Shown in pieces: positions 8,444-22,153 of a stretch of DNA of 26,881 nt (within the stretch, counting starts at the first letter, position 1; the number at the start of each line of letters is the position of its first letter). Under the pieces are notes generated by a model, which worked only from the letters and a program-made list of their open reading frames with translations, made no database searches and was not told the origin of the DNA. The translations under genes and the position numbers were made by a program. Source of the DNA: a virus; the IMG/VR virus record IMGVR_UViG_3300017781_000097, positions 1-26,881 of that record; one strand, written 5' to 3'.

Positions 8444-8529
8444 AACTCCTCTTTATTCCAAAGCATTAATAAAAATATAATAAACCCATATATTAAAGCG
8501 ATAATAAGCACATTCAATAAAAAAATCAT
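8440..8529 (-). CDS. Membrane micro-protein, 29 aa
   Basis: ATG 8529 overlaps the TGA of the methyltransferase gene (ATGA) and the frame ends in a TGA that overlaps the next ATG. The product (MIFLLNVLIIALIYGFIIF..., ending LMLWNKEEL) is one hydrophobic helix with a short charged tail. The tight overlap on both sides supports it as a gene. It is unlike the paralogous pair at 1541 and 5046 in sequence though not in type. Confidence 0.65.
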   Translation of the reverse strand: MIFLLNVLIIALIYGFIIFLLMLWNKEEL

Positions 8530-9584
8530 AACCTATCTTCCTCGATTAAAACTTGTTTTATAGCAAGACCTAGGATTCTTGCACATTGTGGAACGATTGC
8601 ATTACCTAAACTTTTTATTCTGTTGGATCTATCTTTGTCCAATTCATGGGAAATCCCATTAGGAACTCCACAAATGTTGGATTGAGTTTGCCACCAGGTT
8701 TGTTGTCCTTCAGTACTGTTCTCGGTAAATTTTTCTCTAGACTGTCTTTCCAAGTCGGTTGATATGCTGCGTCTTTGTAATCCCTTTGTTTCGGTGTTGG
8801 AAACATTTTGTCCTTCTCTATCTTGTTCACTACATCGTTCAGTTTGGCTCCGAAGACTCTGCCAGTCCCAACCCTCGTTACACTCCAACCTGTTGAATTC
8901 TTTTTTACTGTCTCTGCTGGGGCTACTACATCCATATTGCAACTCGCTGATGGTGTTGGATACATTGCCATTGTTTGTGGATCCATTTGTTCTCTCAGAT
9001 TCGATGGTTTGGTTCTGCCCTTTCTGTGTCCCTCCATTAATTTTTTTGTCCCTTGAACGCTTCTCGGAGGCAAGTAATCCATTGTGTTTGGAGTGGCCAA
9101 TAATCCAGACTCTATTCCTTTGGTGCCAAGCACCGAGGCCTGAAGCTGGAATAAGGAAACATTGGACTTCGAAACCTTCACCTTCCAATTGGTCCTGCAC
9201 CTGTCTGAGTACCATGCCGTCTTGGAGGTTAATAAGGCCTTGCACATTCTCCCCAATAACGAATTCTGGTTTGATCTCTTTAATGAGTCTAAACATTTCT
9301 GGCCAGAGATATCTGTTGTCATCTGTTCCTTTTTGTTTTCCTGCAACACTGAACGGTTGGCATGGGAATCCTCCAGTAATGACATCTGCTTCGAATTCTT
9401 GTCCTTTGACATCTCTTATATCTCCTTCTATTGGTATATTTTTAAAATTCTTTTGTAAAACCTTTTGACAAAATTTATCAAACTCTACAAACTTTACTGT
9501 ATCAAATATACCAGTGGAATGAAGACCTAAACTAAAGCCTCCAATACCACTGAATAAATCTAATACTTTGAGTTTATTGTTCAA
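8526..9584 (-). CDS. DNA cytosine-5 methyltransferase
   Basis: A 352-aa C5-MTase that transfers a methyl group from SAM to cytosine C5. Motif I is DLFSGIGGFSLGL (9-21), motif IV GGFPCQPFS (71-79, catalytic C75), motif VI GENV (111-114), motif VIII QRNRVWI (155-161) and motif IX-X RIKSLGNAIVP (322-332). The target-recognition stretch (about 170-310) is hydrophilic and rich in N, S, E and R, unusual for a TRD, probably because a second gene uses the same DNA in another frame. The role is likely protection of phage DNA from host restriction. No restriction endonuclease is adjacent. It overlaps the upstream 65-aa gene by 11 bp. Confidence 0.92.
   Translation of the reverse strand: MNNKLKVLDLFSGIGGFSLGLHSTGIFDTVKFVEFDKFCQKVLQKNFKNIPIEGDIRDVKGQEFEADVITGGFPCQPFSVAGKQKGTDDNRYLWPEMFRLIKEIKPEFVIGENVQGLINLQDGMVLRQVQDQLEGEGFEVQCFLIPASGLGAWHQRNRVWIIGHSKHNGLLASEKRSRDKKINGGTQKGQNQTIESERTNGSTNNGNVSNTISELQYGCSSPSRDSKKEFNRLECNEGWDWQSLRSQTERCSEQDREGQNVSNTETKGLQRRSISTDLERQSREKFTENSTEGQQTWWQTQSNICGVPNGISHELDKDRSNRIKSLGNAIVPQCARILGLAIKQVLIEEDRL
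8615..9412 (-). CDS. Overlapping second-frame protein inside the methyltransferase gene, 265 aa
   Basis: A 265-codon open frame lies +1 relative to the methyltransferase, from ATG 9412 to 8615, wholly inside it. The start has an AAGGAG SD 9 nt upstream, formed by the MTase codons for E-G-D. The product has blocks GLLATPNTMDY (about 104-114), TPSASCN, FPTPKQRDYKD and GGKLNPTFVEFLMGFPMNWT (240-259). I recall the last pattern (GG-LNP-FVEWLMGFP--WT) and the PTP-RD-K block in phage proteins that lie next to or within dcm genes in another frame. A 265-aa open frame by chance inside a GC-poor gene is improbable. Function unknown; it may cooperate with the methyltransferase. Confidence 0.75.
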   Translation of the reverse strand: MSKDKNSKQMSLLEDSHANRSVLQENKKEQMTTDISGQKCLDSLKRSNQNSLLGRMCKALLTSKTAWYSDRCRTNWKVKVSKSNVSLFQLQASVLGTKGIESGLLATPNTMDYLPPRSVQGTKKLMEGHRKGRTKPSNLREQMDPQTMAMYPTPSASCNMDVVAPAETVKKNSTGWSVTRVGTGRVFGAKLNDVVNKIEKDKMFPTPKQRDYKDAAYQPTWKDSLEKNLPRTVLKDNKPGGKLNPTFVEFLMGFPMNWTKIDPTE

Positions 9585-11022: not shown

Positions 11023-11161
11023 GCATACTTGGTCAGCTAAACTTATGGACCACGGTGGTTGTACTACCGATATGCTTAAAATAGAATCTGATATTAAGTC
11101 TACAAGAAATAGTCTTAAATATCAGGATGTACAAGAAAACTTATTAGCTAAAGCTAGTTAA
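10976..11161 (+). CDS. Hypothetical helical protein, 61 aa
   Basis: Helical, basic-acidic protein (PEKIKLLKRLQHLEHTWSAKLMD ... MLKIESDIKSTRNSLKY), probably a helical hairpin. The start at 10976 has GAGG 9 nt upstream; a start at 10961 adds five residues without one. Overlaps the preceding gene by 47 bp, and its 3' end overlaps by 4 bp the minus-strand homing endonuclease gene. Confidence 0.6.
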   Translation: MSPEKIKLLKRLQHLEHTWSAKLMDHGGCTTDMLKIESDIKSTRNSLKYQDVQENLLAKAS

Positions 11162-11583
11162 GTTTTATTTTTTATAAAAGGAAACTTTTTCCCTAGGGCT
11201 TCTGTCGGCTTAACAAACTCATAATGATTTATTATTTGTAACAACTTAGGTCTCTTAGTTACACTGTAAGGTAAAAACAATTTTGATAAATACAATGCTT
11301 TTTGGTGCGAACATCTCCATCTCCATTGATCTTTTTTTCCTAAAGAACCTTTTCCAATTCCTTTAAAATGTATAGAGCCTACTCCTACAATATCATAAAA
11401 ATTTTTAATACAATCTAAATCTGTCATAGCAACTTCCATTGCTACATTCCATTTCATATAAATTTTACCAGAAGGATTTTTACATTTATATTGTTTATAA
11501 TTAATATTACCTTCACCATCAAACAATCCTGCTGCATAAGCAATTAAGTCATTATTATTATGTGGCATATTTCTATTTTGCAT
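11158..11583 (-). CDS. LAGLIDADG homing endonuclease
   Basis: Contains AYAAGLFDGEGNI (about residues 16-28 from ATG 11583), the LAGLIDADG motif with the catalytic acidic residue, and later VGVGSIHFKGIGKG and WRWRCSHQKAL, typical of the single-motif family, which works as a homodimer. It is a free-standing homing endonuclease that would cut alleles lacking it and be copied in by repair. It overlaps the 3' end of the polymerase gene by 11 bp with this start; starts at 11568 (after the polymerase stop) and 11613 are possible. No intron is visible in the polymerase, whose motifs are intact. Confidence 0.88.
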   Translation of the reverse strand: MQNRNMPHNNNDLIAYAAGLFDGEGNINYKQYKCKNPSGKIYMKWNVAMEVAMTDLDCIKNFYDIVGVGSIHFKGIGKGSLGKKDQWRWRCSHQKALYLSKLFLPYSVTKRPKLLQIINHYEFVKPTEALGKKFPFIKNKT

Positions 11584-13447
11584 CTCCCCAACTCTTTCCA
11601 AGTCCAACATCAACTACTGAAGGAACTTTAAATTCAATTGATTTTTCCATTATTGATTTTATTTCTTTAGCATGATTATCATCCTTAATATTAAAACAAA
11701 GTTCATCATGTATCTGTAACATTGGTAAGTGGCCAGCATTATAGCAATCTAACATTGATTGTTTTGTTTGATCAGCTGAAGACCCTTGAATTAATCTGTT
11801 TAAAGCTTTGTATGTATAGGCTCTCTTAATATTATCCTTACCATATTTTGCTACCGCATTATCAAATGTTTCGGCTTGGTGTAATCCAAAGTCTCTTGTT
11901 TCCCATTTATCAAATCTACACTTTCTTCCTTTTTTAGTTCTAATCACACCTTTTTCATCTGCTGCTAATTTACATCTATCAGAAAGTTTTCTGATGAAAG
12001 GTACCTTCTTATTATATTTTGTAATCAATTCATCTGCTTCATCCTTTGTAACTCCTAGAGATAAGGCTAATTTATTTTTACCCATTCCATACATAATACC
12101 TAGTCCAATAGTCTTTGCTTGTGTTCTTTCAATACCCACTAGATCAGCTATTGTCTGATGAAAGTCTGCACTAGATTCTTTATAAGCCTCTACTAATTCA
12201 TTCGATCCTTCATAACCATCTCCAATAGACGCTGCATAATGAACCGTCATTCGTGGTTCTTGTTGTGAATAATCAAAACTACCCCATTGATACCCTTCCT
12301 CTGGTATAAATAAACTACGAATTTTAGGGCCAAAGTCTTTGTTTCTAGCTGGTACTTGTTGTAAATTTGGGTTACTCATTGAAAGTCTACCAGATACAGT
12401 CCCTCCAAGATCTGATCTAAGTTGTTGAATCTCTCCATGGATCCGACCCTTAACTTGGTATCTTAATATAGAAGATAAAAAAGTACTATGAAATTTATTT
12501 ACTTCTCTTGCATGTACAACTAATTGTGCTATTTTATTTTTATTATTACTTAACCAATTTTGTGTAAAGGAAGGCTCTTTTGTTTTTTCAGTTCTTGGAT
12601 ATTCTAACTTCAGTTTGTCAAAAGCTTTGGCGATCTGGCGTGATGCCCAGATGTCTACTTCTATTCCTGATTCTTTTTTTATGGCCACCAATATTTCTTT
12701 TTCTTGGATCATCATTTCTTTTTTTAATGATTCAGCTTTTTCCACTTGCACTCTCACACCTTTTTGCCTCATCTTTATTAACACAGGAATTAATTGTTGT
12801 TCAAGTTCCCACACTGTTGATAAACTTTGGGTAGATATTTCTTGTTTAAATCTTTGCCATAATTTAAGTGTAAGAACTGCATCTTGCTCTGCATAATAAC
12901 CAACATGTTCAGCAGGTAGCTTCCACATCTCTGCTTTAGGATCTATACCATGTGCTGCTGCAGCTTCTCTTAATTCTGTTTCAGCTTTAATCTCACCAAG
13001 ATAATCAACTGATAATGCATTTAAAGAATAGGAAAATCTATTTTCATCTATCAATGCTGCGGCTATCATCGTATCCACTATTGGTCCGTTGACCGTGATT
13101 CCAGATGCTTCTAGCCAACCCACATCGTACTGAGCATTATGAAATACTTTAGTACAAGGTAAACTACAAATTTTTTTCATGTATGCTTTAACTTGTTCTG
13201 GTATCATGTTACCACCACCTAAATGACCAAAGGGAAAATATCCTTGCCATCCATCAACGGCTACTGCAAACCCTACAATTTCTCCTTTACCTAAAGCCCA
13301 ACCAGCTCCAAGTTTCTCATTAATACCATCATCTCTAGTTTCTAAGTCAATAGCTATCTCAGTTGCATTAGATAAATCCTTATATTCAGATGGAGTATTC
13401 CAAATAGATTTTTTAAATGTCAAAGTTAATTGTAAAGCATTACTCAT
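11573..13447 (-). CDS. polA: Family A DNA polymerase (PolA type) with 3'-5' exonuclease
   Basis: A 624-aa replicative polymerase. The exonuclease domain has Exo I DLE (34-36), Exo II HNAQYD (103-108) and Exo III YAEQD (185-189). The polymerase domain has motif A DYSQQEPR (392-399), motif B RTQAKTIGLGIMYG (441-454; K445, Y453) and motif C HDE (580-582). The position equal to E. coli F762 is leucine (L449), a variant used as a marker of phage lifestyle. No 5'-nuclease domain. AAAGGA lies about 8 nt before ATG 13447, whose first base overlaps the stop of a small lipoprotein gene. It follows the oxygenases and DUF3310 in the unit. Confidence 0.95.
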   Translation of the reverse strand: MSNALQLTLTFKKSIWNTPSEYKDLSNATEIAIDLETRDDGINEKLGAGWALGKGEIVGFAVAVDGWQGYFPFGHLGGGNMIPEQVKAYMKKICSLPCTKVFHNAQYDVGWLEASGITVNGPIVDTMIAAALIDENRFSYSLNALSVDYLGEIKAETELREAAAAHGIDPKAEMWKLPAEHVGYYAEQDAVLTLKLWQRFKQEISTQSLSTVWELEQQLIPVLIKMRQKGVRVQVEKAESLKKEMMIQEKEILVAIKKESGIEVDIWASRQIAKAFDKLKLEYPRTEKTKEPSFTQNWLSNNKNKIAQLVVHAREVNKFHSTFLSSILRYQVKGRIHGEIQQLRSDLGGTVSGRLSMSNPNLQQVPARNKDFGPKIRSLFIPEEGYQWGSFDYSQQEPRMTVHYAASIGDGYEGSNELVEAYKESSADFHQTIADLVGIERTQAKTIGLGIMYGMGKNKLALSLGVTKDEADELITKYNKKVPFIRKLSDRCKLAADEKGVIRTKKGRKCRFDKWETRDFGLHQAETFDNAVAKYGKDNIKRAYTYKALNRLIQGSSADQTKQSMLDCYNAGHLPMLQIHDELCFNIKDDNHAKEIKSIMEKSIEFKVPSVVDVGLGKSWGDAK

Positions 13448-13569: not shown

Positions 13570-13618
13570 ATACAACTGCATCTTTTTTACATTTACTGCA
13601 TTTAATTTGTTTTGTCAT
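13451..13618 (-). CDS. Zinc-ribbon protein, 55 aa
   Basis: A 55-codon frame with two knuckles, C7-S-K-C10 and C24-G-P-C27, 14 residues apart, a small zinc ribbon, followed by a basic tail (KFVRLYKRLRFK). It overlaps the end of the upstream oxygenase gene by 17 bp. It may bind nucleic acid. The region also encodes the lipoprotein in another frame; both frames show clear motifs, so both may be used. Confidence 0.6.
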   Translation of the reverse strand: MTKQIKCSKCKKDAVVYENKIYYCGPCAVIKFVRLYKRLRFKPSNNSSQNTVKRI

Positions 13619-14195
13619 CTAAAAATAAATTTCCAGAAATTGTTATTCTTAAATCTTCACTATTATAAAAAGGGTAAACTGTGTGATACAACAGAGCAGG
13701 AAACATCAAACCTTTCTTTTCAAATTTTTTATCTACTGGGATAGATTTTGTTTCTAGTGATCTAAAGAAACCTTTATTAGGACAAACAAATTGTAAATGA
13801 CCTGCTAAATTTTTTACTGAATCAATACCGGGAGCTGCCTTTAATTCATCTTCAATGTTATAAGGAATTTTAATAAATAATATAAAACTCAAAATTCCAT
13901 CGTGACAATGTAAAGGATTAAACTCTAATTTCTTTTGGTAGTTAACCCATAATTCTTTTAAAACTAAACACTTGTTTTTGTTTGAAGATAAAGGAAAATT
14001 TTTCATCCATTTAAAGTTATTATCAGCAATTGTCTCTATAAATTTTTTTACATAAGGGATATGTTCTTGTAAATTATATTCTTCTTTTATATTCCCAGCT
14101 AATCTTGAATTATATTTTTTTGATTTGTCTTTTATAATTTTATTAAGCACATTATAGATTTCATCAGGAATATTAAAACTACATATTTCACTCAT
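13602..14195 (-). CDS. 2-oxoglutarate/Fe(II) oxygenase-like protein, 197 aa
   Basis: The core reads NPLHCHDGILSFILFIKIPY (93-112) and MFPALLYHTVYPFYNSEDLRITISGN (164-189): H96/H98-x-D99 as metal ligand pair, H171 as third ligand and R183 for 2-oxoglutarate. This is the double-stranded beta-helix pattern of the putative oxygenase family common in cyanophages and marine phages. Substrate unknown. It lies between DUF3310 and the zinc ribbon, in the replication cluster. No clear SD is seen before ATG 14195, which directly follows the DUF3310 stop. Confidence 0.75.
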   Translation of the reverse strand: MSEICSFNIPDEIYNVLNKIIKDKSKKYNSRLAGNIKEEYNLQEHIPYVKKFIETIADNNFKWMKNFPLSSNKNKCLVLKELWVNYQKKLEFNPLHCHDGILSFILFIKIPYNIEDELKAAPGIDSVKNLAGHLQFVCPNKGFFRSLETKSIPVDKKFEKKGLMFPALLYHTVYPFYNSEDLRITISGNLFLDDKTN

Positions 14196-14460: not shown

Positions 14461-15009
14461 TTAATATGCCCAGGTAACAAAAGAATACCTAGTCCCCTTT
14501 CTTACTTTAGTTACTTTATGTGGATATAGAAAGGTAGAAGGAAATAGCATTATATCCCCACACCTTAAACTAATTTTGTTTTTATTCAAATAAAAATCTC
14601 CACCTTCATAATTTTCATTTAAGTTTCCTACAATAGATATTATTGGTACACCCTCACTGTTACTAAAAATACTACTTATTAAATCATAGTGTTCTTTCAT
14701 TTCAGTATTCTCAGTATATTTATTAAACCTTATTGTAGAAAGTTTGTGCACAAATATAGAGTTTGAATGTATTTTTTGATAATTAACTAACACTTCAGTT
14801 ATAGGATCTATTAGTAAATCTCTTTGATATGGGTTAGAAAAAAGAATATCTAAATCATTTTTATCTGGTTCGATTAATTGTTTTTTTTCATTGTGATGCC
14901 AGTAATGTTTATCCCAAGTTTCATTGGTGATATTAGAAATTAATTCAGAACAAACTTCTTTTGATAATTTATTTTCAATGTGTATATAATCTTCTAATTT
15001 ATTTTTCAT
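14461..15009 (-). CDS. Prolyl-4-hydroxylase-like 2OG-Fe(II) oxygenase
   Basis: About 182 aa with the P4H C-terminal fold: IRFNKYTENTEMKEHYDL (H-x-D metal ligands), NENYEGGDFYL, LRCGDIMLFPSTFLYPHKVTKVRKGTRYSFVTWAY (third ligand H, 2OG-binding R). Such proteins occur in cyanophages and pelagic phages; the substrate is unknown, proposed to be host or phage proteins. Start at 15009; an ATG at 15027 gives six more residues. It overlaps the helicase by 11 bp. Confidence 0.88.
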   Translation of the reverse strand: MKNKLEDYIHIENKLSKEVCSELISNITNETWDKHYWHHNEKKQLIEPDKNDLDILFSNPYQRDLLIDPITEVLVNYQKIHSNSIFVHKLSTIRFNKYTENTEMKEHYDLISSIFSNSEGVPIISIVGNLNENYEGGDFYLNKNKISLRCGDIMLFPSTFLYPHKVTKVRKGTRYSFVTWAY

Positions 15010-16645
15010 TATTTTTTTCTTGAACATATATTAAATAATCAGAGCCAATTGGATAATTAAACTTATAATCACTTCTTAACAAATGTAAAGTTTTTCTTGC
15101 TCTAGTTGCACCAGTATACCAAACTTTCTTTTCATCACTTTTTTCTTTTTTATTTTTATTTCTATAATCAGACGGATAATTACCCTTACTGTAAAGCACT
15201 ACATGATTTGCTTCCCCACCTTTAACACTATGAATTGTATCAATAGTTATTAATGGATCTTTGTCTAATTCTTTTTGTCCATATCTCCTAAGTAGTCTAA
15301 TAAAATGTCTTACTTGTTTTGGTTTAAAATTTCTTCTTAATATCCAAAACCAAGGCTTATTCTTTTGGCTATCCTCTAGTGTTAAACCACACCATTCTTT
15401 TAAAGTTTGAAAATCATACTCTCTCATATCAGGTTCATTTCTCCAAAACTTATCTAATCTATAATTAGGGTCTTCTAGTTCTCTAATATTCTTATACATA
15501 TTACGAGCTGCTTTCTTATCTATTTTTTTTCCATTTGTTAATGCAGTCCAAGCTTTAATAGATTCCCATTGTTTCTGATCAAAACATTTTGTTCCTTTAT
15601 TATCTTTATAATAGAGACCAGCATCCTTAGCTAACATTCTTAACTCATTAACAGTTTCATTAATACGGCCAAGGATGTACCAATCTTCTTTAAAATTTTC
15701 AAAAGGTATTTCCTTAAAAGATAAGTAAGCTTTAACAAAACCTTTTGTGTCTCCTGGTAAGTATTCTTTTTCTTCACTATCACTTATACCTCTTCTAATA
15801 ACTTGTGAGAATCTATGAATTGCTTCTCCAAATCTTTGTGTCTTCCTAAGCTTTACTTTTCTACCTGGAAAGAATTTTGTAAAATATTTTGGATCAGCTC
15901 CATTCCATTTATATATAGCTTGATCGTCATCCCCAGCTAAGTAAATTCTTTTTACTTTAGGTGCCATCTTATAAATAACCGACCATTGTAAAGGAGTACA
16001 ATCTTGAGCTTCATCTAAAATTAAAACTTTTAATGAGGGAAAATCTATTTCAGTTATAGCTCTTTCAATCATATCATCAAAATCTATAAATGATCTTTCT
16101 CCTCCACCAGTTTTATAATGTTCATAAGTGCTTATCTTTCTTAAAAAAACAGTAAGAGAATCTCTCTTATATGTCTCTCTTCTATAAGCTTCTTCTGGTG
16201 TAATTAATAAATTTCTAGATTTACTATAAACACCTAATGACCAATCCTTATACATAAAATTATCATCGGCTAATCTTTTGTCACTACTCTTAATTACTTT
16301 AGTTTGAAGTGCAAAATCTATTGTGCAATCTTTTGGGTCAAATACTTCTTCTGGAAAATATCTTCTACAGTAAGTATGTAATGTTTTAAATCTTGCGAAG
16401 TCATCAGTAGTGTAGTTAGGAAAAGATTCCATTGCTCTTCTAACAGCTGTGTTAACAGCTTTATTGGTAAAAGATAAGTAAGCTATTTCTTGTGGCCTTA
16501 TACCTTTTCTTAAATAACTTTTTAATACTTTTTCTATTAAAGTATAAGTCTTACCTGTACCGGGAGGACCAAAGATCTTTACTGTTTTATGGTAAAGTTC
16601 TTTTAAAAATTTAAGTTCTAAACTTTCCTGTGTGGTATTCATCAT
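14999..16645 (-). CDS. SF1 (UvrD/Rep-like) DNA helicase
   Basis: A 548-aa ATP-driven DNA helicase. Motif I GPPGTGKT (26-33), motif Ia YLSFTNKAV (56-64), motif II DEAQD (211-215), motif III GDDDQAIYKW (238-247), a motif V region TIDTIHSVKGGEANHVVL near 468-485 and motif VI WYTGATRARKTLHLL near 510-524. It would unwind the fork or a recombination intermediate. It overlaps the primase-polymerase gene by 35 bp. ATGATG at the start leaves residue 1 or 2 as first. It is a direct neighbour of the primase and probably works with it at the fork. Confidence 0.92.
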   Translation of the reverse strand: MMNTTQESLELKFLKELYHKTVKIFGPPGTGKTYTLIEKVLKSYLRKGIRPQEIAYLSFTNKAVNTAVRRAMESFPNYTTDDFARFKTLHTYCRRYFPEEVFDPKDCTIDFALQTKVIKSSDKRLADDNFMYKDWSLGVYSKSRNLLITPEEAYRRETYKRDSLTVFLRKISTYEHYKTGGGERSFIDFDDMIERAITEIDFPSLKVLILDEAQDCTPLQWSVIYKMAPKVKRIYLAGDDDQAIYKWNGADPKYFTKFFPGRKVKLRKTQRFGEAIHRFSQVIRRGISDSEEKEYLPGDTKGFVKAYLSFKEIPFENFKEDWYILGRINETVNELRMLAKDAGLYYKDNKGTKCFDQKQWESIKAWTALTNGKKIDKKAARNMYKNIRELEDPNYRLDKFWRNEPDMREYDFQTLKEWCGLTLEDSQKNKPWFWILRRNFKPKQVRHFIRLLRRYGQKELDKDPLITIDTIHSVKGGEANHVVLYSKGNYPSDYRNKNKKEKSDEKKVWYTGATRARKTLHLLRSDYKFNYPIGSDYLIYVQEKNNEK

Positions 16646-19565: not shown

Positions 19566-19593
19566 ATATTATTTGATTGATTATTGCAAACAA
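19566..19593 (-). promoter_or_regulatory. Promoter and inverted repeat in the 19.5 kb divergent gap
   Basis: On the minus strand TTGTTT (19593-19588) and TAATAT (19571-19566) are spaced 16 bp, in front of the replication unit. AATCAA (19559-19564) and TTGATT (19573-19578) form a 6-bp inverted repeat around the -10. The same 72-bp gap must carry the plus-strand promoter of the SNF2 helicase, so an operator shared by both directions is possible. Confidence 0.4.
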
Positions 19594-19613
19594 ATAATTT
19601 AAATAATTTTACA

Positions 19614-21020
19614 ATGTATAAATACAAAACAGAACCCTTTAAGCATCAAAGACAATCATTAATTGAAGGGGCAAAACCATACAACTTTGCTTACTTTATG
19701 GAAATGGGAACTGGTAAAACTAAAGTTGCTATAGACAATGCAGCTTATTTATTTCAAGATCAAAGAATTAATTTTGTATTTGTTATTGCACCTAATTCTG
19801 TATATCAAAATTGGAAAAAAGAAATTGATGTTCATTGTCCAGAAGAAACAAATATCTATATTTGGAAAGTAACTAAAGATAAAACGTTTAAGCTAGATCC
19901 TAAAAAACTTACATTTATTTTAATGAATGTTGAAGCATTATCTCATGCATCAGGTAAGAAATGGTTAGAATATAAACTACTTAAACATGGTATGAGAAGC
20001 ATGATTATATTAGATGAAAGTACTTCAATTAAAAATTTAAAAGCATCAAGATCTAAAGCTATTATTAAATTAGGTCAATTAGCTAGATATAAAAGAATAC
20101 TAACTGGATCTCCTATTACTAAATCTCCATTAGATTTATTCTCTCAATGTGCTTTTTTAGATAAAGCCTTATTAGGTTATGACAATTTTACAGTATTTAA
20201 ATCTAAGTATGCAGTTATGTATAGTATTGAAAGAGGTGGATACAATATTCAAATACCTAAATACTATGTAAATCTTGAAGAATTAGAATATAAATTAAAA
20301 CACTTTTCTTACCGTGTTAGAAAAAAAGATTGTTTAGATTTACCAGAAAAGATGTACGTACAAAGATATGTGGATATGTCAGAAGAACAAAGACTAGCTT
20401 ATGAAAAGTTAAAAATTACTGCACTTATGATTATGAAAGATGAAGAAGTATCTTACAATAATAAGCTTACTGAATTACTTAAATTACAACAAGTAGCAAA
20501 TGGTTTTGTAAAAACTAATGATGGTAATATTGTTGATTTTAAAACGAATGCCAAACTTAAAGAACTAATGAGTATCTTAGAAGAGAGTGAAGATAAGTGT
20601 ATTATATGGGCTAACTATGTACATAACATTGAAAGTATTAAAAGTAAATTAGCTGAAACTTATGGGGTTGATTCTGTAGTTTCAATATATGGTAAAGACT
20701 CAGTTGAATCTCGTAACCAATCAGTTGAAAAATTTCAAACAAAAGATGAATGTAGATTCTTAGTTGGTAATCCAACAGTAGGTGGTTATGGTTTAACTTT
20801 GACTGCTGCTAAATATGTAATTTATTTTAGTAATTCTTATAATTTAGAAGTCAGACAACAAAGTGAAGATAGGGCTCACAGAATAGGTCAGAAGTCGCAA
20901 GTAACTTATATTGATATAATCTGTAGAGATACTATTGATCAAATGGTATTACACAATCTTGAAAACAAAATAGAATTATCTGCTAAGACTCTTGGGGAAC
21001 AGGTTCAGAAGTGGCTTTAG
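19614..21020 (+). CDS. SNF2-family DNA helicase
   Basis: About 468 aa, SF2. Motif I MGTGKT (31-36), motif II DEST (134-137), motif III LTGSPITKSPLDLF, then the second RecA lobe with IIWANYVHNIESIKSKL, GGYGLTLTAAKYVIYF and motif VI QQSEDRAHRIGQKSQVTYID. It would remodel protein-DNA complexes or branch-migrate DNA. It is the only plus-strand gene in the replication region, and its 3' end overlaps the minus-strand nuclease gene by 38 bp. An upstream TTG would add 10 residues; ATG 19614 has no SD. Confidence 0.9.
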   Translation: MYKYKTEPFKHQRQSLIEGAKPYNFAYFMEMGTGKTKVAIDNAAYLFQDQRINFVFVIAPNSVYQNWKKEIDVHCPEETNIYIWKVTKDKTFKLDPKKLTFILMNVEALSHASGKKWLEYKLLKHGMRSMIILDESTSIKNLKASRSKAIIKLGQLARYKRILTGSPITKSPLDLFSQCAFLDKALLGYDNFTVFKSKYAVMYSIERGGYNIQIPKYYVNLEELEYKLKHFSYRVRKKDCLDLPEKMYVQRYVDMSEEQRLAYEKLKITALMIMKDEEVSYNNKLTELLKLQQVANGFVKTNDGNIVDFKTNAKLKELMSILEESEDKCIIWANYVHNIESIKSKLAETYGVDSVVSIYGKDSVESRNQSVEKFQTKDECRFLVGNPTVGGYGLTLTAAKYVIYFSNSYNLEVRQQSEDRAHRIGQKSQVTYIDIICRDTIDQMVLHNLENKIELSAKTLGEQVQKWL

Positions 21021-21723
21021 ATTTGTGATATCTATCTACTCTTTCTAACCATTTATCTTCATACTCTTTTAACTTTGATTCATTCATTTTAAATTCTTGG
21101 TATAATATATCTTTGGTACAAATACATATAAGGCCTTGTGTTATAGGACCATATTGTTCTTTGTGTGCTAATGAATATGCAGCTATCTGATAGTAATAGT
21201 CTTCTACAAACTCTTCTCTCTTTGGTTTATTACTTTGTTTAAAGTCAATGATTGTAGGTTTATCATCATAAAGACCAACTACGTCTGTTGCACCTGCCCA
21301 TCTATCTTCATATGCTAGACTTACTTCATTACCCCATACCTCTTTCAATAGGTCAAGATTGTTTACTATCTCGTGAGCCATGAGTCGTGCTTGTGCACCC
21401 TCTGGAGATAGGTTTAGGTAGCCACGACCATCTATGTAGTTTTCAAGGACATAGTGCATCTCCGTGCCTCTGAGAGCTGCCTGTGAGGTAATTCTAGCTG
21501 CCTCTTGGTATCCAACTCTTTCTCTCCACTTATCTAATCCAGCTTTCTTTTCAGGAGATTGAGTAGCAGATAATATAGTCGTAACACTTGGTATCTTTTT
21601 GTTACCTACATTATAAGTCCGTGAACCGTCCTCCTCCTGTCTTGTATATTTTTTATATTGGTATTTCTTTTCGAGTTTTAAATCAGTAATAAAAAATTTA
21701 TTGTTTTTTTTAATAAGTTGCAT
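20983..21723 (-). CDS. Cas4/RecB-like PD-(D/E)XK exonuclease
   Basis: A 246-aa nuclease. IPSVTTILSATQ (44-55), RGTEMHYVLE (85-94, H90), GATDVVG (144-150, D147), IIDFKQSNK (158-166, D160, K162) and DYYYQIAAYSLA (175-186) are the conserved blocks. Likely ssDNA or end-processing exonuclease in recombination or replication. Its start overlaps the end of the cupin gene by 14 bp. It is the tail-to-tail partner of the SNF2 helicase, overlapping it by 38 bp. Confidence 0.88.
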   Translation of the reverse strand: MQLIKKNNKFFITDLKLEKKYQYKKYTRQEEDGSRTYNVGNKKIPSVTTILSATQSPEKKAGLDKWRERVGYQEAARITSQAALRGTEMHYVLENYIDGRGYLNLSPEGAQARLMAHEIVNNLDLLKEVWGNEVSLAYEDRWAGATDVVGLYDDKPTIIDFKQSNKPKREEFVEDYYYQIAAYSLAHKEQYGPITQGLICICTKDILYQEFKMNESKLKEYEDKWLERVDRYHKSKATSEPVPQES

Positions 21724-22153
21724 ATGAAAAAATAATTCTAGGATCTAAACCAATTGCTACATGTAAACTTCTTGCTGGTATATGAAGCATATCACCAGGT
21801 TCTACAATAAATTCTTTGTCTTCTACTTTATATAAAGTTCTTCCTAATGCTCCAATAATAAATACATCATAATCGTCTCTATGTGTTGGGCTTTTAATTC
21901 CTGATTGCATACTATAAAAAATATCTAAATCAGAATTAGAATTATTTTTATTAAAATTTTTTTGTAAGTAATTGTACATATCTCTTAAATCTGGATTTTC
22001 TTGTATACCTTTTATTTGAAAAGTAGAATGTAATACATATTCTGATAACCATTGACTATTTATTTGAGATACATAATGGCCTGAATTTAATATTCTTGAA
22101 CAAGAATTAAAATCAAAGGGTTGTGCAAATTTTATTTTATTTTTTTCAAACAC
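21710..22153 (-). CDS. Cupin-fold protein (possible oxygenase), 147 aa
   Basis: C-terminal half HRDDYDVFIIGALGRTLYKVEDKEFIVEPGDMLHIPARSLHVAIGLDPRIIFSYATY is a cupin: H-x-D metal ligand pair, PGDML-IP turn and a second H before the strand ending in R. Resembles JmjC-like cupin oxygenases of marine phages, so an Fe(II) enzyme is likely; the substrate is unknown. GTG start at 22153 (no other in-frame start nearby), 9 nt after the XhlA-like gene. It is the third oxygenase-like gene here. Confidence 0.7.
   Translation of the reverse strand: MFEKNKIKFAQPFDFNSCSRILNSGHYVSQINSQWLSEYVLHSTFQIKGIQENPDLRDMYNYLQKNFNKNNSNSDLDIFYSMQSGIKSPTHRDDYDVFIIGALGRTLYKVEDKEFIVEPGDMLHIPARSLHVAIGLDPRIIFSYATY

Follow-up and report, generated by a model that had tools for sequence, protein, structure and literature searches.

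A phage C5-cytosine methyltransferase gene enclosing a second gene that carries motif IX

Described split methyltransferases and the layout of the locus

M.EcoHK31I (YGGCCR) is a C5-cytosine methyltransferase made of two polypeptides (Lee, Kam & Shaw 1995, as cited in PMC3404938). Its large subunit carries motifs I-VIII and X together with the predicted target-recognition domain, while motif IX lies on the small subunit (PMC3404938). The small subunit is reportedly also read from an alternative frame inside the large one. M.EcoHK31I is part of a restriction-modification system. A second two-subunit C5-methyltransferase, M.AquI (CYCGRG), is divided between motifs VIII and IX, and its beta subunit carries both IX and X (PMC3404938). 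Multispecific C5-methyltransferases are represented by those of Bacillus phages SPR and phi3T (Trautner et al. 1996, in the references of PMC12707154). In these enzymes, variable rows of short modules lie between motifs VIII and IX.

Here, we describe a locus in a marine phage contig from IMG/VR (record IMGVR_UViG_3300017781_000097), of which the whole stretch analysed, 26,881 nucleotides, is called the window. A C5-cytosine methyltransferase chain, alpha, encloses a second open reading frame, beta, in its +1 frame (Table 1). We consider it likely that the two are chains of one split C5-cytosine methyltransferase, interleaved in a single stretch of DNA, although their assembly into a complex and its activity are inferred. 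Alpha matches Pfam PF00145 (DNA_methylase, E 6.8e-55) and phrog_363 (E 3e-73), and possesses the SAM-binding motifs and the catalytic PCQ, ENV and RxR (PF00145 match, aligned to M.HhaI). Its match to M.HhaI in a phmmer search of the PDB is limited to residues 5-162. Beta starts 172 nt into alpha and is wholly nested, ending just 5' of motif X.

Table 1. Features of the alpha/beta locus, numbered along the window
Feature	Coordinates	Strand	Size, content or basis
Alpha, C5-cytosine methyltransferase chain	8526..9584	(-)	352 aa, TTG start; motifs I-VIII and X, without motif IX
Beta, nested ORF in the +1 frame of alpha	8615..9412	(-)	265 aa, ATG start
Shine-Dalgarno core AAGGAG of beta, from alpha codons GAA GGA GAT	9422..9427	(-)	sequence
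TAA in the beta frame, two codons 5' of the beta ATG	9416..9418	(-)	sequence
Catalytic motif IV of alpha (GGFPCQPFSV), overlapped by beta codons	9345..9374	(-)	sequence, HhaI alignment
Beta N-terminal domain, residues 1-103, over alpha motifs IV-VIII	9104..9412	(-)	both frames constrained
Beta cassette 1 (LLATPNTMDY...), putative recognition cassette	8966..9103	(-)	71-member cluster, always slot 0
Beta cassette 2 (MYPTPSASCNMD...)	8807..8965	(-)	25-member cluster, slots 0-3
Beta cassette 3 (MFPTPKQRDYKD...)	8693..8806	(-)	cassette segmentation
C5-methyltransferase motif IX in beta (LNPTFVEFLMGFPMNWT)	8636..8686	(-)	profile match, spacing
Motif X of alpha (GNAIVPQ), just 3' of the beta stop codon	8586..8606	(-)	sequence, frame census

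The locus fulfils the two M.EcoHK31I-type criteria on motif partition, motif IX being absent from alpha, which has I-VIII and X, and present on beta. It differs from M.EcoHK31I in that its recognition-like region, a row of cassettes, is selected in beta rather than residing in the large chain. It is also phage-borne, with no restriction enzyme recognised among the window ORFs read or scanned. With M.AquI it shares the break between motifs VIII and IX, but motif X remains on alpha; the M.AquI-type criterion of IX and X together on the small chain fails here and is fulfilled by Mycobacterium phage Bruiser. Whereas the SPR and phi3T modules sit in a single methyltransferase chain, the cassettes here are in a second chain and another frame. 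They are shuffled in number and order, and multispecificity is only a possibility.

An initial annotation had placed a 265-codon frame entirely inside a 352-aa methyltransferase gene, in +1, behind a well-placed AAGGAG built from methyltransferase codons, and both points are borne out by the ORF coordinates and the start signal. It had also credited the methyltransferase with motifs I-X, which holds for I-VIII and X and fails for IX, found in the second frame. Its suggestion of a hidden partner needs qualifying: the motifs are divided in this way in M.EcoHK31I too (PMC3404938), so this kind of system is already known, and the beta family itself already exists as phrog_1008. What is new is the breadth of the arrangement (hundreds of phages), the nested cassette-bearing subunit, the frame-by-frame selection result and the mosaicism of the cassettes. 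None of the papers searched describes this overlap, and the sole match for phrog_1008 was rejected as apparently a word-start match to phrog_10089.

Elsewhere in the window, a LAGLIDADG endonuclease (11158-11613, minus strand; PF00961, E 1.6e-6), probably a homing endonuclease, overlaps the end of the DNA polymerase gene. A SNF2-family helicase (19584-21020, PF00176) is the only large plus-strand gene, running opposite to its neighbours. Three minus-strand ORFs (14461-15027, 13602-14195 and 21710-22153) look like 2-oxoglutarate or cupin-type oxygenases, on the strength of H-x-D...H patterns only.

The nested frame is a gene under selection

The openness of the second frame was compared with chance by shuffling synonymous codons within the methyltransferase 20,000 times. 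Positions 8615-9412 stayed open in none of the 20,000 shuffles; the longest +1 run is 266 codons, against a mean of 86 and a maximum of 224 among shuffles. The +2 frame is unremarkable, its 40 codons being reached by 7,462 of 20,000 shuffles. The second frame is likewise +1 to the methyltransferase in 80 viral relatives and in phages N15, Bloom, R9.1 and pEp_SNUABM_08. The 80 relatives came from a search with the second protein, making ascertainment bias possible. To address this, a scan used only the N-terminal 169 aa of alpha as query, and returned 79 newly fetched loci. Eighteen of these run off the contig, and in all of the remaining 61 beta is open through motif IX, including two that a pattern search had scored as stopping before IX and that do contain FVSFLMGYP. 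Locus L018 has an in-frame beta stop close to the contig edge, and in L078 beta is intact but shorter. As a separate observation, alpha is broken early into two open pieces in uncultured phage Deep1-GF2-KM23-C739 (sequencing error or real change), where the beta CDS is intact from position 2043.

Beta has its own start signal. The AAGGAG core ends 9 nt before the ATG, and in most relatives the beta open frame starts one codon before the ATG. The TAA just 5' of the ATG leaves no frameshift entry from upstream alpha codons. Judged from upstream sequences, the core is retained at 39 of 41 distinct beta starts despite differing alpha residues: the alpha versions E-G-D (GAAGGAGAT), E-E-D (GAGGAGGAT) and L-K-E-L (AAAGGAGTT) each spell it.

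Selection can be read frame by frame owing to the geometry of a +1 overlap, in which methyltransferase codon positions 3 and 1 coincide with beta positions 2 and 3, respectively. Among the closest pairs, variability at methyltransferase positions 1, 2 and 3 is 0.000, 0.003 and 0.055 on the 5' side of the overlap, and 0.066, 0.019 and 0.021 within it. That position 1 is the most variable inside the overlap could not result from selection on the methyltransferase, and the beta frame must therefore itself be selected. Conserved four-fold sites of alpha also show less third-base entropy inside the overlap (0.48 and 0.40 bits) than outside it (1.31 bits).

An OLGenie-like count over 21 disjoint pairs (intervals in brackets) gave a beta-frame dN/dS of 1.04 [0.83-1.44] on the 5' side of the overlap and 0.66 [0.32-1.23] on the 3' side. 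Inside, the beta ratio was 0.24 [0.13-0.33] in the N-domain and 0.31 [0.24-0.40] across the cassettes and motif IX. For alpha, the ratio was 0.17 before the overlap, 0.13 [0.07-0.18] in the N-domain zone and 0.22 after the overlap, yet 0.81 [0.70-0.92] under the cassettes and motif IX. The region expected to hold target recognition is thus nearly neutral in alpha and constrained in beta.

Beta is therefore a real gene under selection, although its translation is inferred. The initial annotation had called it a genuine second gene, and this is upheld by an intact frame and purifying selection across diverged loci. Both frames are constrained in the N-domain; under the cassettes, alpha is nearly neutral. 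Two of the checks it proposed gave results: homologues of the second protein were found in the +1 frame of C5-methyltransferases in phages of many hosts, bearing out its view that the gene is widespread, and dN/dS in beta was purifying inside the overlap and about 1 before it. Frequent stops in the second frame, which it had named as refuting, were not met at the uncut loci of the alpha-only scan. Its idea of a hidden C5-methyltransferase partner is supported and can be specified as the carrier of motif IX, with association of the chains still inferred.

Motif IX, cassettes and relatives of beta

Beta belongs to phrog_1008, labelled 'DNA methyltransferase' (residues 2-262 to profile positions 30-282 of 329, E 1.4e-24). 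It has no match in Pfam or NCBIfam, and no catalytic or SAM-binding motif. Because of the latter, the label is a poor one, and motif IX/specificity subunit would be a better name. The same family includes the second-frame CDSs of Paenibacillus fernviruses and K1ind2, in which both frames are annotated.

Motif IX is carried by beta and is absent from alpha at this locus. The beta C-terminus has the motif IX spacing seen in the frame-0 PIEAERLQSFPDNWT of control methyltransferases, and the beta family profile aligns with single-chain methyltransferases over 23 columns on the IX block (hhalign, probability 97%, E 1e-10). A weak PDB profile match of beta also falls on an IX-like stretch of a DNA methyltransferase (LEPDEVEMLLGFPKNHT, 4onj). 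In a frame census, motif IX was in +1 only for 102 of 114 intact viral alphas. In PF00145 control methyltransferases of Lactobacillaceae, IX is confined to frame 0, with none in +1. The pattern is reversed at the beta-bearing bacterial loci L232, L234, L238 and L233, the last being more degenerate.

In profile comparisons, the likeness of beta to known methyltransferases is confined to this block of about 20 residues, the cassettes and N-domain having no recognised outside homology. Modelled alone, beta reached a mean pLDDT of only 52, without a fold match. Such a model is compatible with a partner-dependent subunit, but neither supports nor refutes one and proves nothing.

Between the N-domain and motif IX lie the 'PTP' cassettes, numbering 2 to 7 per protein across 129 nested proteins. 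Clustering sorted 309 cassettes into 37 groups, and most of the bigger groups are represented in several slots, on backbones either nearly identical or clearly different. This mosaicism is as expected for recognition modules, and the cassettes are probably the target-recognition domain, DNA recognition itself being inferred.

Related stretches in IMG/VR number at least 466, and each query returned 70 to 307 phage records, of which the frame was checked for only some. The hosts of these phages include Paenibacillus, Escherichia, Klebsiella, Salmonella, Rhodobacter and Mycobacterium, among others, and plasmids are represented too. All sampled betas lie within or overlap a C5-methyltransferase. 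The nested arrangement is widespread, occurring in hundreds of phages, where it is usually mislabelled. Bacterial genomes rarely contain it, with matches at E 1e-6 in 4 of the 398 Bacillota genomes. A search of Citrobacter and Enterobacter plasmids for a restriction-modification copy with a nested beta yielded only phage-like plasmids.

Other relatives distribute the same blocks differently. In a Mycobacterium prophage methyltransferase and its actinophage kin, a single chain carries 'LLPTPxAxD' cassettes, EWMMGWPxGWVT (IX) and GNGVVPQ (X) in one frame. One such actinophage protein was modelled as a complete M.HhaI fold (pLDDT 76.6, pTM 0.76, Foldseek E 1e-16). Mycobacterium phage Bruiser encodes motifs I-VIII in gp78 and the cassettes, IX and X in gp77, the two genes partly overlapping in +1 in an M.AquI-like manner. 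Familton gp7 and gp6 likewise form a catalytic half and a cassette/IX/X half with a partial +1 overlap, and in both phages the two genes are annotated as 'DNA methylase'. At loci L208-L230, motif IX is read in +1 and motif X in frame 0; at L183, L184 and L188, both are read in +1. At L186, the cassettes are in +1 and IX in frame 0, so motif IX is not on beta in every case. That locus encodes a single-chain actinophage methyltransferase (1186-2583) with IX and X in frame 0, and a +1 ORF (1502-2368) that spans the beta N-domain and PTP cassettes and ends short of IX. These arrangements look like steps of one series (single chain, partial overlap, full nesting), with its direction tentative in the absence of a tree.

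Alternative explanations and implications

Of the alternatives, the one that survives best, though unlikely, is that beta is real but performs a separate job, as a regulator, anti-restriction protein or restriction enzyme that merely overlaps the methyltransferase. In its favour, a biochemical link to the methyltransferase is lacking, and the N-domain and cassettes have no recognised fold. Against it, beta supplies motif IX exactly where alpha is without it, no sampled beta was found apart from a C5-methyltransferase, and single-chain homologues carry the same blocks in frame. Programmed frameshifting, yielding an alpha-beta fusion instead of a separate beta, is less probable still. Single-chain relatives indicate that a fused protein is workable. 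However, this candidate was rejected on the stop before the beta ATG and the conserved Shine-Dalgarno sequence and start codon, and a shift within beta would drop the N-domain, itself under selection. Finally, a shadow ORF, kept open and conserved merely through the methyltransferase motifs and repeats beneath it, would account for those beta motifs that are literal +1 images of methyltransferase motifs (such as LWPEMFRL over SGQKCLDS) and for tblastn matches tracking methyltransferase homology, but it is all but excluded by codon shuffling, codon-position variation (position 1 fastest in the overlap), two-frame dN/dS (cassettes conserved in beta over a nearly neutral alpha), four-fold-site entropy (synonymous sites frozen inside, free outside), a Shine-Dalgarno sequence that survives alpha residue changes, and control methyltransferases without a comparable +1 gene bearing IX.

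Under the split-methyltransferase reading, which we prefer, alpha would provide motifs I-VIII, the core for SAM binding and catalysis, as well as motif X. Beta, initiated from its own Shine-Dalgarno sequence and ATG inside alpha, would contribute the conserved N-domain, the variable cassette row and motif IX. It is predicted to dock onto alpha through the N-domain, using its motif IX to complete the small (DNA-recognition) domain and presenting the cassettes to the DNA. In this way, beta would determine the sequence or sequences methylated, and methylation would shield phage DNA from host restriction. Self-protection is the likely purpose, an inference resting on the lack of a recognised restriction enzyme among the ORFs read or scanned. 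Translation of beta, association of the chains, recognition by the cassettes and the anti-restriction role are all inferred, without expression or activity data.

We speculate further that beta is a modular specificity subunit, following a logic like that of HsdS in Type I systems, nested in its own methyltransferase. Each of the 2-7 interchangeable cassettes would set a target, and their shuffling would retune or broaden self-methylation while both frames are kept. C5-methyltransferases would have moved from the single chain through the partly overlapping split to the nested one. Taken jointly, these three proposals seem to us as apt to fail as to hold.

The locus exemplifies a well-supported, long gene pair, one member wholly inside the other, that recurs in phages of many bacterial groups and in which selective labour is clearly divided between the frames. 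For annotation, phrog_1008 entries and doubled 'DNA methyltransferase' labels would be corrected to denote one enzyme's catalytic chain and its motif IX chain, the latter being lost by gene callers that do not allow nesting. If the reading is true, many phage C5-methyltransferases deemed complete would show no activity if the nested partner is left out of the clone. The family also offers a natural series for studying how a protein domain shifts out of frame into an overlapping gene.
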